64,000 nt of DNA from Cryobacterium levicorallinum (lineage in GTDB: Bacteria; Actinomycetota; Actinomycetes; Actinomycetales; Microbacteriaceae): assembly GCF_004402405.1 (NCBI RefSeq), contig NZ_SOFE01000023.1, positions 308,297 to 372,296 of the forward strand, read 5' to 3'. How positions within the stretch are numbered: the stretch's first letter is position 1; each line of letters starts with the position of its first letter. Below the pieces are notes generated by a model. The model had not been told where the DNA came from. It made no database searches and saw only the letters and a program-made list of their open reading frames with translations. Both the position numbers and the translations under genes were made by a program. Below are positions 45,609 to 51,800 of this stretch, piece after piece.

Positions 45609-45817
45609 TGCGTGGCGTGGCTTGTCGTCCAGACAAACCGTGCAATAATTGTTCAAGGACCCGTTCTGGTCCGGGGCATCTCCACACCGTGTGGTACTTA
45701 CAGTGTTGGTTTGGGCATCCCTGGGCTTGACATGGGTCCAAGTTCTGCCCAAAAACGCATCTGGCGCCGTCACCGGTCGCACAGAAGCAGGTAAGACTCC
45801 GCATGAGAGGTGCTCCA

Positions 45818-47080
45818 ATGGCAACCACCGTAAAGACCGAGGCGACCGACGAGGCGCCCACGACGACGGTCAAGAAGACCGTCACCAAGGCTCCAGCAGC
45901 CAAGGCCGCCGCGACGAAGAAGTCCGCGGCCACCGCAGCTGGCGTCGACAAGCCTGCTCCCAAGAAGCGCGTCACCAAGGCCAAGGTCGTCAAGAAAGAC
46001 GAAGAAGCCGACGTCGACAGCGCGCCGGACGGCGAGGAATACGACTCAGACGACGAAGGCACCAAGCGCCCGGCCTCGGCCGAGCCATTGCCGAGCGGCG
46101 CCCTCGTGCTGTCGCTGGTTGACGACGACGATGAGGTTCCGGTCTACTCGAGTGCCATCACCGGCGCGACGGCCGACCCGGTCAAGGACTATCTCAAGCA
46201 AATCGGTAAGGTCGCCCTGCTGAACGCTGCCGAGGAGGTCGAACTGGCCATGCGCATCGAGGCCGGCCTGTTCGCTGAGGACAAGCTGTCGGTCATGACC
46301 GATGTCGAGAAGAAAAACGCGCTCGGCCGCGAGTTGCAGTGGGTCGCCAAGGACGGCGCCCGCGCCAAGAGCCACCTGCTCGGTGCCAACCTCCGCCTCG
46401 TTGTCTCGCTGGCTAAGCGCTACACCGGTCGCGGAATGCAGTTTCTCGATCTGATCCAGGAGGGCAACCTCGGGCTCATCCGCGCCGTCGAGAAGTTCGA
46501 CTACACCAAGGGCTTCAAGTTCAGCACCTACGCCACTTGGTGGATTCGTCAGGCGATCACCCGCGCCATGGCCGACCAGGCCCGCACCATCCGCATTCCG
46601 GTGCACATGGTCGAGGTCATCAACAAGCTCGCCCGGGTGCAGCGGCAGATGCTGCAAGACCTCGGCCGTGAACCCACGCCCGAAGAACTCAGCCGCGAAC
46701 TCGACATGACGCCGGAAAAGGTCGTCGAGGTACAGAAATACGGTCGCGAGCCGATCTCCTTGCACACCCCGCTCGGTGAAGATGGCGACAGCGAGTTCGG
46801 CGACCTCATCGAAGACACCGAGGCCGTTGTACCAGCGGATGCGGTCGGTTTCACGATGCTGCAGAAGCAGCTCGAGAGCCTGCTCGATTCGCTCTCCGAG
46901 CGCGAAGCCGGCGTCATTCGAATGCGCTTCGGCCTCGGCGACGGCATGCCCAAGACACTGGACCAGATCGGCGACACCTTCGGTGTCACGCGTGAACGCA
47001 TCCGTCAGATCGAGTCCAAGACGATGGCCAAGCTGCGCCACCCGTCCCGGTCGCAGTCCCTACGCGACTACCTCGAGTAA
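45818..47080 (+). CDS. sigA: RNA polymerase primary sigma factor
   Basis: This is the housekeeping sigma factor, 420 residues. The first about 110 residues are a Lys/Ala/Asp-rich disordered region, as in actinobacterial HrdB/SigA. Region 1.2 is [16 protein letters not shown]; region 2 contains the core-binding [13 protein letters not shown] and -10 recognition [13 protein letters not shown]; region 4 ends with [14 protein letters not shown] for -35 binding. I chose the ATG at 45818, with GAGGTG upstream; the ATG at 45803 is itself next to that site. A leader of about 200 bases precedes it, with TTGACA at 45728 but no good -10. Confidence 0.96.
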
Positions 47081-47124: not shown

Positions 47125-48405
47125 GTGAAGTCGGTGAAGTACGCTCCGGCGATTCTGATTGGTCGAGCGGTTCGGGTTCTAGCCCGCTGGCGCAAACCGG
47201 GTGGTGGCTCGGCCATCCCCGGCGTCGTCGTCAACCGCATCGCGCCTCGTTTTTTGGCCGACACCCTCAACGGCTTTCCGCTCGGTTTGGTCATCGTGAC
47301 CGGTTCGAGCGGCAAGTCGACGACGACCAAGATGCTCGTGGCCATTCTGCGGGCGCACGGCCTGACCGTGTTCACCAACCAGTCGACGGCCAATATCAGC
47401 CAGGGTTTGACCAGCGCACTGCTTGAACGGGTCACTCTGACCGGGCGCATCGCGGGTGACGTTGCCGTTCTTGAAATGGACGAAGGGCACGGTGCCTTGA
47501 TCGCCGGGTCGCTGAGCCCGCGCGTTGTCGCCCTTACCAACGTCATGGTCGACCAAATCGACCGGTTCCACGACTCAGAGATGGTCGCGGCCCTGCTCGG
47601 CAAGATCGCTGCCCGCGCCACTGAAACCGTGGTTCTCAATGCCGACGACCGCTACCTCGCCGACGTCGGCTCCAGGCTCGAACCGAGCATACGGGTGTCC
47701 AGCTACGGCGTCACCGCCCACGTTCTCACGCTGCACCCCCGTGGCCTGGGCTACGCCGACACCGCCGAATCGCGTCTGCCCGCTGGAAGGGGACTCCAAC
47801 TGACCGGAATGGCGGGGCGAACTGCCGAAGTGGAATTCCCTTCCAACGGCGGCAGCCACAGCATTGCACTGCCGGCCCGCGGCATCCATTACGCCGTTGA
47901 TGCTCTGACCGCGCTCGGCGCCGCCGAGGCCACGCTGGGGGAGACTTTCAACCCTGCCACCGCCTGTGCCGCACTCTCGGCTATGCCGGCCGTCTTCGGT
48001 CGCGGCGAAGTCGTCACCGTCGGCGGTAAAACGATCGAATTCGTGCTCGTGCAAAACCCGTCGAGCTTTCAGCTCAACGTGGACAGCCTCGAGGCCGGCA
48101 CGGAGCAGATCATCGTGATCATCGGCTCCGATGTGCGGGATCCCTCCTATTTCTGGCCGGTCGATACCTCGGGGCTTGGCCACGTGCTGATCGCCTCCGG
48201 ACTGAAGGCGCACGACATCGCCCTGCAGCTGGCCTACGACGGCGTGGCGGTCGATCGCATCGAACCCGACGTCCCGACCGCGCTCGATGCCTTCCTGGCA
48301 CTGCCGGATCCCGTGTCCGGGGTGAAAACGATCATCTTCTCGGCTGACGGCATGCGGCGCACCCGCGCCCACCTCGGCCTCGTCTCCAACGTTGAGGAAT
48401 CGTAA
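47125..48405 (+). CDS. murT: MurT-like Mur-ligase (lipid II D-Glu-modifying subunit), zinc ribbon absent
   Basis: MurT activates the alpha-carboxyl of D-Glu in lipid II with ATP, and in other bacteria ammonia from GatD then gives isoglutamine. This 426-residue protein has the P-loop VTGSSGKSTTTK (residues 58-69), the Mur-ligase EMDEGH and TNVMVDQIDR stretches, NADDR, and a C-terminal DUF1727 domain with SDVRDPSYFWPVD. Characterised MurT proteins carry a four-cysteine zinc ribbon after the NADD motif; here that stretch has no cysteine, and the protein has only one cysteine, in the motif TACAALSA. It lies directly before the GatD-like gene with no gap. The partner also lacks its nucleophile, so a different amine donor is plausible. 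Confidence 0.85.
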   Translation: MKSVKYAPAILIGRAVRVLARWRKPGGGSAIPGVVVNRIAPRFLADTLNGFPLGLVIVTGSSGKSTTTKMLVAILRAHGLTVFTNQSTANISQGLTSALLERVTLTGRIAGDVAVLEMDEGHGALIAGSLSPRVVALTNVMVDQIDRFHDSEMVAALLGKIAARATETVVLNADDRYLADVGSRLEPSIRVSSYGVTAHVLTLHPRGLGYADTAESRLPAGRGLQLTGMAGRTAEVEFPSNGGSHSIALPARGIHYAVDALTALGAAEATLGETFNPATACAALSAMPAVFGRGEVVTVGGKTIEFVLVQNPSSFQLNVDSLEAGTEQIIVIIGSDVRDPSYFWPVDTSGLGHVLIASGLKAHDIALQLAYDGVAVDRIEPDVPTALDAFLALPDPVSGVKTIIFSADGMRRTRAHLGLVSNVEES

Positions 48406-49167
48406 ATGACCGCCACGTCGATTGAGCGCCCCTTCACGGTGGTCTCGCTGCTGCCTCGTCTCCTCGACACCAACGGCGATGCCGGCAACGCTCGCGTGTT
48501 CGCCCAGCGCGCCCGGTGGAGCGGCCGCGAAGCGCGAGTCGTCGACGTGCATACCCGGGCCGATCTGCCCGAACACGTCGACGCGGTGTCGATCGGATCG
48601 GGAACGGATGCTGCGCTGCTGCCTGCGAGGGATGCCCTGCGCACCGTGCTGGAAGACCTGCGAGTCTGGTCGAATTCCGGCGTGCCCATTCTGGCCGTCG
48701 GCACCGGCTGGGAGCTGATCAGCTGGGGGATAGACCTCGCTGGCGGAAGCGTAATCGAGGGACTCGGACTGGTCGCGGGCCACGCCGTTCCCCGCACGAA
48801 ACGCGCCACCGACGACATCATCGTGTCGTCAAAGTTTGGGCGGCTGATCGGGTTCGAGAACCACGCCCGCGACTATGTCGGCGCTGAGGCGAGCCCGCTG
48901 GGCCGGGTGCTCCATGGTACAGGCAATGCGGATGCTCCGGCGAGCGGACCGCAGATCGAGGGCCTGACCATGGGTGAGGTGTTCTGCACCCACCTGCACG
49001 GTCCCGTTCTGGCCAGAAACCCCGGGCTGGCCGATCACCTGCTCAAGGCGGCATTCCGTCGCCGCGGTCTCGTCTATTCCCGCGGCGCTGTGGCCGAGTC
49101 CGTCGATGAGACGGCGCGCACCGCGCGCAACCAGGTTGCGTTGCGGCTCGGGCAGCCGACCGAATAG
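48406..49167 (+). CDS. gatD: GatD-like amidotransferase lacking the catalytic cysteine
   Basis: GatD is the glutaminase that feeds ammonia to MurT. This 253-residue class I amidotransferase-fold protein keeps the opening LLPRLLDTNGDAGNA, the SIGSGTD loop, GFENHARDY and the histidine motif THLHGPVLARNP (H198). The nucleophile elbow, normally AICGGYQ, reads AVGTGWE (97-103), so glycine G99 (codon at 48700) replaces cysteine. A cysteine at 194 lies beside the histidine motif but not at the nucleophile position. It should therefore be unable to hydrolyse glutamine. The ATG directly follows the murT stop, so the pair is coupled. Confidence 0.85.
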   Translation: MTATSIERPFTVVSLLPRLLDTNGDAGNARVFAQRARWSGREARVVDVHTRADLPEHVDAVSIGSGTDAALLPARDALRTVLEDLRVWSNSGVPILAVGTGWELISWGIDLAGGSVIEGLGLVAGHAVPRTKRATDDIIVSSKFGRLIGFENHARDYVGAEASPLGRVLHGTGNADAPASGPQIEGLTMGEVFCTHLHGPVLARNPGLADHLLKAAFRRRGLVYSRGAVAESVDETARTARNQVALRLGQPTE

Positions 49168-49628: not shown

Positions 49629-49721
49629 AGCCATGTTGCTCAGTTGTGACCCACGCGAGACACGAGGCGCGGCAGGCGATGCGCGAAGGCACCCCGGTTG
49701 GCCCCGGTATTCTTGGTTGTT

Positions 49722-51800
49722 GTGAGTTCTGACTATTCTGCGCGCCACCTATCCGTCCTCGAAGGACTGGAGGCAGTGCGCAAACGCCCCGGCATGTACA
49801 TCGGCTCGACCGACTCTCGCGGTCTGATGCACTGCCTGTGGGAGATCATCGACAACTCGGTTGACGAGGCCCTCGGTGGCCACGGCGCGAGCATCAATAT
49901 CGAGCTGCACCCCGATAAGAGCGTCGAGGTGCGCGACACGGCCCGCGGTATCCCGGTCGATATCGAACCCAAGACCGGCCTGACCGGCGTCGAGGTCGTC
50001 TTCACCAAACTGCATGCCGGCGGCAAGTTCGGCAGCGGATCCTATGCCGCGTCCGGCGGATTGCACGGGGTCGGAGCATCCGTCGTCAACGCCCTGTCCG
50101 AACGTCTCGATGTCGAGGTCGACCGGGACGGCAAGACCTGGGCCATGTCCTTCCACCGCGGAGAGCCCGGCCTGTTCGCCGACACGGGGGAGAAAAGTCC
50201 GGACGCCCCGTTCACTCCGTTTGAGAACCAGAGCGAGCTGCGGGTGATCGGCAAGGTCAAGCGCGGCGTCACGGGCACCCGCATCCGCTATTGGGCCGAC
50301 CGGCAGATTTTCACCAAAGGTGCAGCCTTTCAGACCGACGAGGTGCTGAACCGGGCCCGGCAGACGGCGTTCCTGGTTCCGGGCCTGGCGATCGAGGTCG
50401 CCGACCGGCGCACCGAAGAGCAGGTGGTCAGCCTGTTCCAGTTCGATGGCGGGATCAGCGAATTCGTCGAGCATCTTGCGACGGATGCCCCGATCACCGA
50501 CACCTGGCGGCTGACCGGCAGCGGCACCTTCAGCGAAACCGTACCGGTGCTCACCGACAAGGGCGCCATGGTGCCCACCGAACTCGTGCGCGACTGCGAG
50601 GTGGATATCGCCCTGCGCTGGGGGACCGGCTACGACACAATCGTGCAGAGTTTCGTGAACATCATCGCCACGCCGAAGGGAGGCACGCACCAGGCCGGCT
50701 TCGACGCCGGGCTGCTTAAATTTCTGCGCGGTCAGCTGGAGCTGAATGCCCGTCGGCTCAAGGTCGGCAGCGACAAGCTCGACAAGGACGACGTGATGGC
50801 CGGCCTCACCGCCGTGCTCACCGTGCGCCTGCCCGAACCGCAGTTCGAGGGCCAGACGAAAGAGGTGCTCGGCACGCCGGCCGTGCGGGCGATCGTTGCC
50901 AGCGTTGTCGCCAAGGCCATGGCGGAGCGCTATGCCTCGGCAAAACGTGACGACAAAACGCAGTCGGCGCTGTTGCTCGACAAGATCGTCGCCGAAATGA
51001 AGTCGCGCATCTCCGCCAGGGCGCACAAGGAAACCCAGCGGCGTAAGAACGCCCTGGAGAGTTCCTCCCTGCCGGCCAAGCTGGTCGATTGCCGCAGCAA
51101 CGACGTGTCCACGAGTGAGCTGTTCATCGTCGAGGGCGACTCAGCGCTCGGCACCGCCAAGCTCGCGCGCGACAGTGAGCATCAGGCGCTGCTGCCGATC
51201 CGCGGCAAGATTCTGAACGTGCAGAAGGCATCCGTTTCGGACATGCTCTCCAACACCGAGTGTGCCTCGATCATCCAGGTGATCGGTGCCGGCTCCGGGC
51301 GTAGCTTCGACCTGGCGGCGGCGCGCTACGGCAAGGTCATCATCATGAGCGACGCCGATGTCGACGGCGCCCATATTCGTACCCTGCTGCTCACCCTGTT
51401 CTTTCGCTACATGCGCCCGATGATCACCGAGGGCCGCGTGTTCGCTGCGGTGCCGCCGCTGCACCGGGTGGTCGTGATAAACCCGGGCAGCAAGCCCAAC
51501 GAGACCATCTATACCTATTCCGAAACCGAGTTGCACGCGGTGTTGACGGCGCTCGAGAAGAAGAATCGCCGCTACCAAGACCCGATCCAGCGCTACAAGG
51601 GCCTCGGCGAAATGGATGCCGACCAGCTCGCGACAACGACCATGGAACGCGCCCACCGCACCCTGCGCCGGGTGCGCGTCGACGATGCCGAGGCGGCCGG
51701 CAAGGTGTTCGAACTGCTCATGGGGAACGATGTGGCCCCGCGCAAGGAGTTCATCATCGACAGCTCCGACAAGCTCTCCCGCGATCGCATCGACGTCTAG
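49722..51800 (+). CDS. Type IIA DNA topoisomerase subunit B (ParE/GyrB-like)
   Basis: This 692-residue ATPase subunit works with an A subunit to pass DNA through a double-strand break. It shows LEAVRKRPGMYIGSTD, the GHKL ATP site EIIDNSVDEA and GLHGVGASVVNALS, and the Toprim domain EGDSALGTAK and MSDADVDGAHIRTLLL. The start is the GTG at 49722, with no ribosome-binding site, possibly leaderless. The A-subunit gene faces it at 51984-54473. The pair is not next to dnaA or recF, and the primary gyrase is expected elsewhere, so a topoisomerase IV-like (ParE) role is likely but cannot be proven from the sequence. Confidence 0.9.
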   Translation: MSSDYSARHLSVLEGLEAVRKRPGMYIGSTDSRGLMHCLWEIIDNSVDEALGGHGASINIELHPDKSVEVRDTARGIPVDIEPKTGLTGVEVVFTKLHAGGKFGSGSYAASGGLHGVGASVVNALSERLDVEVDRDGKTWAMSFHRGEPGLFADTGEKSPDAPFTPFENQSELRVIGKVKRGVTGTRIRYWADRQIFTKGAAFQTDEVLNRARQTAFLVPGLAIEVADRRTEEQVVSLFQFDGGISEFVEHLATDAPITDTWRLTGSGTFSETVPVLTDKGAMVPTELVRDCEVDIALRWGTGYDTIVQSFVNIIATPKGGTHQAGFDAGLLKFLRGQLELNARRLKVGSDKLDKDDVMAGLTAVLTVRLPEPQFEGQTKEVLGTPAVRAIVASVVAKAMAERYASAKRDDKTQSALLLDKIVAEMKSRISARAHKETQRRKNALESSSLPAKLVDCRSNDVSTSELFIVEGDSALGTAKLARDSEHQALLPIRGKILNVQKASVSDMLSNTECASIIQVIGAGSGRSFDLAAARYGKVIIMSDADVDGAHIRTLLLTLFFRYMRPMITEGRVFAAVPPLHRVVVINPGSKPNETIYTYSETELHAVLTALEKKNRRYQDPIQRYKGLGEMDADQLATTTMERAHRTLRRVRVDDAEAAGKVFELLMGNDVAPRKEFIIDSSDKLSRDRIDV

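Follow-up and report, generated by a model that had tools for sequence, protein, structure and literature searches.

What does a MurT-GatD pair do once its glutaminase subunit has lost the catalytic cysteine? The question is raised by two adjacent genes in a 64,000-nucleotide stretch of Cryobacterium levicorallinum DNA (contig NZ_SOFE01000023.1; the whole stretch is called the window below), which encode a Mur-ligase-like MurT and a glutaminase-fold GatD. Group B peptidoglycan, which has marked the Microbacteriaceae for decades, needs a bond on the D-Glu alpha-carboxyl, and we found no enzyme for the group B bridge described in the open-access literature. The original prediction took the dead pair for a possible ligase of this bridge, with GatD as its scaffold or amino-acid-binding subunit. 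From comparison of sequences, predicted structures and loci, we consider it likely that at the D-Glu alpha-carboxyl, where the group B bridge starts, the pair attaches an amino acid and not ammonia.

Glutaminase site and ligase site of the pair

We queried 80 Microbacteriaceae genomes with the window MurT and 119 genomes of the order with MurT_C. The MurT of 52 of the 80 family genomes belongs to one clade (Shimodaira-Hasegawa-like approximate likelihood ratio test, 100), represented by 54 rows including two extra genomes; 53 of these rows have a GatD, the 54th (L095) having none in the piece read. In genomes of the order beyond Microbacteriaceae, MurT_C gave matches in 39 of 119, and 30 of these were read. 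Since MurT_C scores the Cys-less clade poorly (32.1 bits in the window's own genome, cut-off 25), a Cys-less pair in another family could be missed. For residue comparisons we used 33 Cys-intact rows (25 from other families and 8 from Microbacteriaceae), leaving out seven divergent Cys-intact rows (L061-L064, L096, L097, L105) and dropping L065 as a duplicate of L105. The features of the window pair are as follows.

47125..48405, + strand: murT, GTG start, 426 aa; Mur-ligase-like subunit of the glutaminase-dead clade
47302..47328, + strand: ATP loop GSSGKSTTT, MurT residues 60-68; G60, G63, K64 and T68 in 53/53 clade members
47479..47484, + strand: D119-E120, Mg site, equivalent by motif to S. 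pneumoniae D112/E113; 53/53 clade, 33/33 Cys-intact
48139..48141, + strand: D339, equivalent of S. aureus MurT D349 by HMMER alignment; 53/53 clade, 33/33 Cys-intact
48406..49167, + strand: gatD, 253 aa; GATase-fold subunit without nucleophile
48700..48702, + strand: Gly99 codon at the catalytic Cys position in the window sequence; Cys in 33/33 Cys-intact rows
48997..48999, + strand: His198 of THLHGP, present in the window; only 37/53 clade rows keep it

The genes are immediately adjacent, as had been noticed, with their junction at 48405/48406 and both on the + strand. The MurT scores over the Pfam cut-offs for Mur_ligase_M (2.2e-16) and MurT_C (1.2e-6), and the GatD over that for GATase_3 (4.3e-11). 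The NCBIfam equivalog cut-offs are missed, at 85 bits versus 800 for MurT and 103.8 versus 450 and 69.9 versus 400 for GatD. A second intact murT-gatD pair was not found in this genome, where MurT_C has a single match. Other GATase_3 matches of the genome were rejected as a second GatD, giving 23 bits (L004), 18 bits (L005) and no match (L003) with the GatD profile.

The replacement of the catalytic Cys by Gly, noticed in the window, holds there and extends across the clade: the Cys column of the 53 clade GatD rows reads Gly in 38, Ala in 11, Ser in 2, Thr in 1 and Asn in 1. Cys stands at the nucleophile position in all 30 order relatives of other families that were read, and its loss in the clade is not chance (absent from 53/53, present in 30/30). 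Other GatD positions invariant in the 33 Cys-intact rows are also largely gone, Q67 being retained in none of the 53 clade rows, D68 in 15, Q71 in 16 and Y196 in 1; we take these four to line the glutamine site. GatD residues N28, G149, G199, L202 and P206 are retained in 53/53. The histidine motif does remain in the window GatD, as had been stated. Of the GatD Cys and His that mark an isoglutaminyl synthase, however, the clade lacks the first in 53/53 rows and has the second in 37/53. One strongly reduced genome (G013; L094, 927303 bases) still has a pair of the clade, in which Ser replaces the Cys.

Retention of the ATP loop and of the Mur-ligase and MurT_C features, likewise noticed beforehand, was borne out for MurT. 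Residues K64, N90, D119, E120, D143, Q144, R147, N172, R293 and D339 are present in 53/53 clade rows, so that the Mur-ligase catalytic residues of an isoglutaminyl synthase (K64, N90, D119, E120, D339) are conserved throughout, and both folds are encoded in adjacent genes. The Mg-site role of S. pneumoniae D112/E113 comes from PMC6085368, and S. aureus MurT D349 is a putative triad Asp in PMC6113224. Features specific to the clade MurT are N318 (53/53), S314 (52/53), D/E408 (53/53) and a loop before D339 that is one residue shorter. Two further sites were considered and are not claimed. H255/D259 was tried as a substrate pocket, but the motif falls in what we take to be the ATP-site region of Mur ligases. 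Residue 312, together with the pre-D339 loop, was tried as a code for diaminobutyrate (DAB) versus ornithine (Orn) or lysine (Lys); it is suggestive by genus, follows the tree, and is broken by L174 (Salinibacterium soli) and L145 (titled Rhodoluna).

The predicted structures agree with these assignments. The MurT model (predicted local distance difference test, pLDDT, 92.3) has a Mur-type ligase fold together with the ATP motif; its best PDB match is MurT 9sqj_AAA (Z 29.6, 349 aligned, root-mean-square deviation, rmsd, 3.9), with which MurC 7bvb_A ties (Z 29.4), followed by MurF 3zl8 (Z 26.6) and MurE 2wtz_D (Z 25.9). The GatD model (pLDDT 93.7) matches S. aureus GatD 6h5e_A best (Z 30.8, 237 aligned, rmsd 2.3). 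In S. aureus, no amidation takes place with GatD C94G or C94S (PMC6113224), and the enzyme needs GatD even with ammonia supplied (PMC6085368). Both models are confident and lie nearest to solved MurT and GatD partners; with its glutaminase site lost, the clade GatD has the look of a pseudo-glutaminase retained in a structural role.

With the MurT-GatD synthase of S. aureus, S. pneumoniae and M. tuberculosis the window pair shares both folds, the gene order, the ATP loop, the acidic Mg pair, the triad-Asp equivalent and, in the window, the HGP motif. It differs from that synthase in having no nucleophile Cys, in the loss of further glutaminase-site positions, in the reshaped loop before D339, in its place behind sigA and in the lack of a zinc ribbon, the last being common to most Cys-intact relatives. 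MurC to MurF resemble the clade MurT in fold, and it would share their amino-acid nucleophile; unlike them it has a GATase-fold partner. The archaeal pseudomurein MurT-like proteins of Methanopyrales and Methanobacteriales, basal to MurT, are a MurT lineage without GatD (PMC11915815).

The zinc ribbon requires a correction. Its absence from the window MurT was correctly read (one Cys, no CxxC), and the ribbon form of CxxC is absent from the 53 clade MurT rows, but 28 of the 30 Cys-intact relatives also lack it. Ribbon loss was therefore rejected as part of the innovation: in the alignment with relatives outside the family, a comparison proposed as a check, Cys loss is a clade trait (53/53) and ribbon loss does not coincide with it. 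Two CxxC occur within MurT only in L062 and L064 among the 30 relatives; L043 also has two, but located in upstream read-through. A cysteine tetrad is present in some Actinobacteria (PMC6085368).

Distribution of the Cys-less clade and its place behind sigA

These alignments support Cys loss in one old clade, seen only in Microbacteriaceae. The 28 family genomes outside it comprise 8 with a Cys-intact pair only, 4 with a divergent Cys-less pair and 16 with no pair; two of the 52 clade genomes (G050, G060) carry a Cys-intact pair as well. A scan of named loci covered the best 80 of 426 relatives, which come mostly from Microbacteriaceae (Agromyces, Rathayibacter, Cryobacterium, Curtobacterium, Microbacterium, Leifsonia and others) and thereby identify the family searched. 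Among these 80, Cys was found only in L173 and L182-L185, which are not clade members by motif, and no GatD was seen in L116, L170 and L177, the last two ending at a contig edge. Two titles in this set are odd. L173, titled Candidatus Saccharibacteria, has a Cys-intact, actinobacterial-looking MurT-GatD and is perhaps a binning error; L165, titled Planococcus sp. APC 4015, has a SigA that groups with Microbacterium and is probably mislabelled.

The window pair lies between two genes that recur in the comparisons below.

45803..47080, + strand: sigA-like gene directly upstream of murT, the locus anchor; name read from sequence
49698..51800, + strand: parE/gyrB-like gene, the other flank of the locus; name read from sequence

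Directly upstream of the clade murT, sigA was found in 53/54 clade loci, the exception (L034) having a 697-base gap. The same arrangement occurs in 2/4 divergent pairs, 0/10 Cys-intact family loci and 0/30 other-family loci (short flanks). In a FastTree tree of SigA the window groups with G072 and L126 (Cryobacterium sp. PH31-L1), with support of 99 for the trio.

A CofE-like gene in genomes without the pair

We read the region behind sigA in 20 genomes, namely 14 of the 16 pair-less, 2 divergent and 4 Cys-intact ones, and matched parE downstream of sigA in 19 of them (in L216 it was not reached within 7.7 kb). In 11 of the 14 pair-less genomes (not G017, G045 and G047) the place behind sigA is held by a distant relative of CofE/FbiB, the F420-0:gamma-glutamyl ligase family (PF01996), which unlike the pair it stands in for has no match to either the MurT or the GatD family. 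Most pair-less sigA regions also hold an ATP-grasp gene (PF14397), and G077 holds a MurJ gene; in G040 the CofE-like gene lies on a different contig from sigA. Matches of 23-25 bits to MurT near sigA in G045 and G049 were dismissed as an artefact of N-terminal read-through in a local profile.

The CofE-like gene and the clade pair exclude one another in the genomes searched. In the family search, 32 of the 80 genomes gave some match to CofE but only 13 exceeded 300 bits, the next scoring 30 bits, and the weak matches were set aside. The 13 are 12 of the 16 pair-less genomes and the divergent G049; no match above 300 bits was found in the 52 clade genomes or in the 8 with a Cys-intact pair only. 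Fisher's test gives 2.5e-10 for 12/16 pair-less versus 0/52 clade genomes, with phylogeny ignored. We then have the same contrast inside one genus, that of G114 (identified as Microbacterium through SigA neighbours; n=59), where GatD matches reach E <= 0.001 in 49 genomes and exceed 230 bits in only 10 (next 34 bits), all with Gly at the Cys position, and 53 match CofE but only 49 above 360 bits (next 31 bits). These 49 are exactly the genomes other than the 10, with no overlap and no gap, a partition whose probability would be 1.6e-11 for independent genomes, which these are not. Six loci of each kind read sigA, clade murT, clade gatD and racemase versus sigA, CofE-like gene and ATP-grasp. 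In a SigA tree with 76 of the 80 genomes (four divergent ones left out) we count 17 changes of state for the pair and 10 for the CofE-like gene; the tree yields only 3 supported independent pairs, and the clade pair and the CofE-like gene never went the same way.

The CofE-like protein (L228:2639-3370) belongs to PF01996, with 47.5 bits to F420_ligase (cut-off 25) and a profile match to solved CofE (E ~8e-4). It is not CofE itself, because NCBIfam F420_cofE scores of 31.3 and 28.1 bits fall far under the cut-off of 180.65; the L226 and L100 proteins give no match. Known CofE relatives add an amino acid.

Two other candidates for the replacement were rejected. An extra Mur ligase is not general, since 14 of the 16 pair-less genomes have 5 Mur_ligase_M matches and the other two, G018 and G020, have 6, compared with 6 to 8 in 20 pair-bearing genomes (36 genomes in all). 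PF14397 was matched in 23/80 genomes at E <= 0.001, the matches beyond the strong ones being mostly weak. It is strong (>=95 bits, that is, at least 95) in 11/16 pair-less genomes, but strong matches also occur in G016 (clade), G012 (Cys-intact) and G029 (divergent), whereas G033 has none and G054 only a weak match elsewhere; we therefore regard it as an accompanying gene, not the replacement. Several loci combine these genes in other ways. L082, L106 and L099 (G016, G029) have a Cys-less pair with PF14397 right beside gatD and may be replacement intermediates. L100 (G049) clusters a divergent Cys-less MurT and GatD with a CofE-like gene, away from sigA. Two nearby PF14397 genes stand away from sigA in two genomes without the clade pair (L240, L260, L244 and L262; G012, G047), a possible third solution.

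A proposed ligase for the group B bridge and its alternatives

Because the glutaminase is lost and the ligase kept, and because an unrelated amide ligase excludes the pair and occupies the same locus, the evidence favours an exchange of nucleophile, an amino acid taking the place of ammonia. MurT would remain an ATP-dependent ligase that activates the D-Glu alpha-carboxyl in the peptidoglycan precursor; with its ammonia source lost it would use a free amino acid, through its amino group, as the nucleophile; this ligation would start the group B interpeptide bridge with a diamino acid, or with Gly where Gly comes first; and GatD would be the structural partner completing the MurT site. We infer from the sequences catalysis by the pair and, with it, lipid II as acceptor, the amino-acid nucleophile, the scaffold role of GatD and the timing of the step. 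A wider reading is that two unrelated, interchangeable ligases begin the bridge, namely the MurT amidase turned ligase and the CofE-like enzyme, that genera swapped them behind sigA, and that racemases and transaminases supply the amino acid; we judge this whole to have a slightly better than even claim.

Neighbouring genes accord with an amino-acid substrate. Alanine-racemase-family genes lie within ~3 kb of the clade gatD in 8/17 clade genomes and downstream of the CofE-like gene in 7/9 (4 to 6 kb away in G077). Nine order relatives have 1 or 2 racemase copies, with MurT and racemase >30 kb apart where they share a contig (G095, G110, G156). Paired racemase genes recur behind the CofE-like gene (L216, L218, L220, L225, L226) and next to the clade gatD in other genomes, and are possibly diamino-acid racemases. 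A diaminobutyrate transaminase stands near sigA in G018 (624.5 bits, cut-off 438), G053 has a protein 67% identical to it, and another lies beside the clade pair in L141.

Gly occurs in the bridge of some group B walls. As to the diamino acids, published wall descriptions give DAB with B2-gamma for Cryobacterium (Table 3, PMC7033078); L-DAB connected to D-Orn for Agreia and DAB for Subtercola, both B2-gamma (PMC5945732); B2-gamma with D-Glu-L-Dab for Agromyces aureus (PMC5217419); DAB for Glaciihabitans, D-Lys for Frigoribacterium, Lys and Orn for Salinibacterium and a structure given as unknown for Lysinibacter (PMC7033078); D-Orn, L-Lys or DAB for Microbacterium (PMC10757982); D- and L-DAB, B2-gamma, for Herbiconiux (PMC10011130); B2-beta with DAB for Rhodoluna (PMC4156110); and type B with DAB for Leucobacter (PMC4804768). 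The clade thus spans walls with differing bridge amino acids, which agrees with a ligase that takes different amino acids in different members. For Pontimonas salivibrio, a streamlined clade genome (G027), a direct crosslink without bridge enzymes was inferred by its authors from annotation (PMC6106888).

Four alternatives were weighed. The best of them, which we nevertheless think improbable, is that the pair forms a different amide of this pathway, for instance by adding Gly or a further bridge residue to a bridge amino acid already in place, or that it works on a soluble precursor, while another gene is the ligase for the D-Glu alpha-carboxyl. PF14397 accompanies the CofE-like gene in 10/12 pair-less genomes, a hint of more than one ligation, and the Gly of some bridges could call for such an enzyme; but known MurT enzymes act on the D-Glu alpha-carboxyl, and no other ligase was seen to go generally with the clade pair (PF14397 is strong in 1/52, and most have no extra Mur ligase). 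Less probable again is a pair that is still an amidase, using free ammonia instead of glutamine to form D-isoglutamine. Amidation would block the carboxyl on which the bridge of group B walls is built, and the exclusion with the CofE-like family and the racemase and DAB-transaminase neighbours also speak against it, although the conserved ligase residues are compatible with such an enzyme and ammonia at pH 8.5 is a usable substrate for the S. aureus enzyme, GatD still being needed (PMC6085368). That the complex is catalytically dead and serves regulation or scaffolding of the wall machinery agrees with the lost active site of GatD, yet it is very improbable given MurT ligase residues in 53/53 rows and another amide ligase in most genomes without the pair. 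Functionless decay can be put aside almost entirely: the 17 state changes on the best, weakly supported SigA tree and stops inside the match in MurT of G038 and G048 and GatD of G042 (two perhaps the gene's own end) would suit it, but the ligase residues are conserved clade-wide, even in the reduced genome L094, and loss is usually paired with a replacement gene.

Several observations count against a bridge ligase, or against its being general. The prediction of a bridge ligase with a GatD scaffold gains from the clade-wide Cys loss, the ligase residues, the locus, the replacement gene and the neighbours, but 28/80 family genomes are without the Cys-less clade, so it is not the sole solution. 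Fifteen of the 80 have neither the clade nor the CofE-like gene (8 Cys-intact, 3 divergent, 4 with nothing found), and either other answers exist or our reading is incomplete. Genome counts ignore descent, and on the weakly resolved SigA tree the exclusion cannot reach significance with 3 pairs. The conservation pattern fits free-ammonia use too. Naasia lichenicola (L116:2992-4248) has a clade murT near sigA without gatD beside it, a sign that some clade members can do without GatD, unless here it is located elsewhere; the gene next to this murT is MFS-like, as named from sequence. Among clade genomes, the six closest to the window (G000, G072, G058, G022, G041, G046) have no racemase beside the pair; the L-Dab bridge of Agromyces, which has the same MurT type, is compatible with an L-amino-acid substrate in them but is no proof of one.

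The group B bridge now has two concrete, mutually exclusive enzyme candidates, and their partition within the Microbacterium-type genus offers a natural experiment on bridge ligases inside one genus. If the bridge-ligase reading is true, the pair would clearly exemplify an amidotransferase that, by losing its glutaminase, exchanged tunnelled ammonia for a whole amino acid as its nucleophile, and a missing step in building the walls of Microbacteriaceae would be identified.

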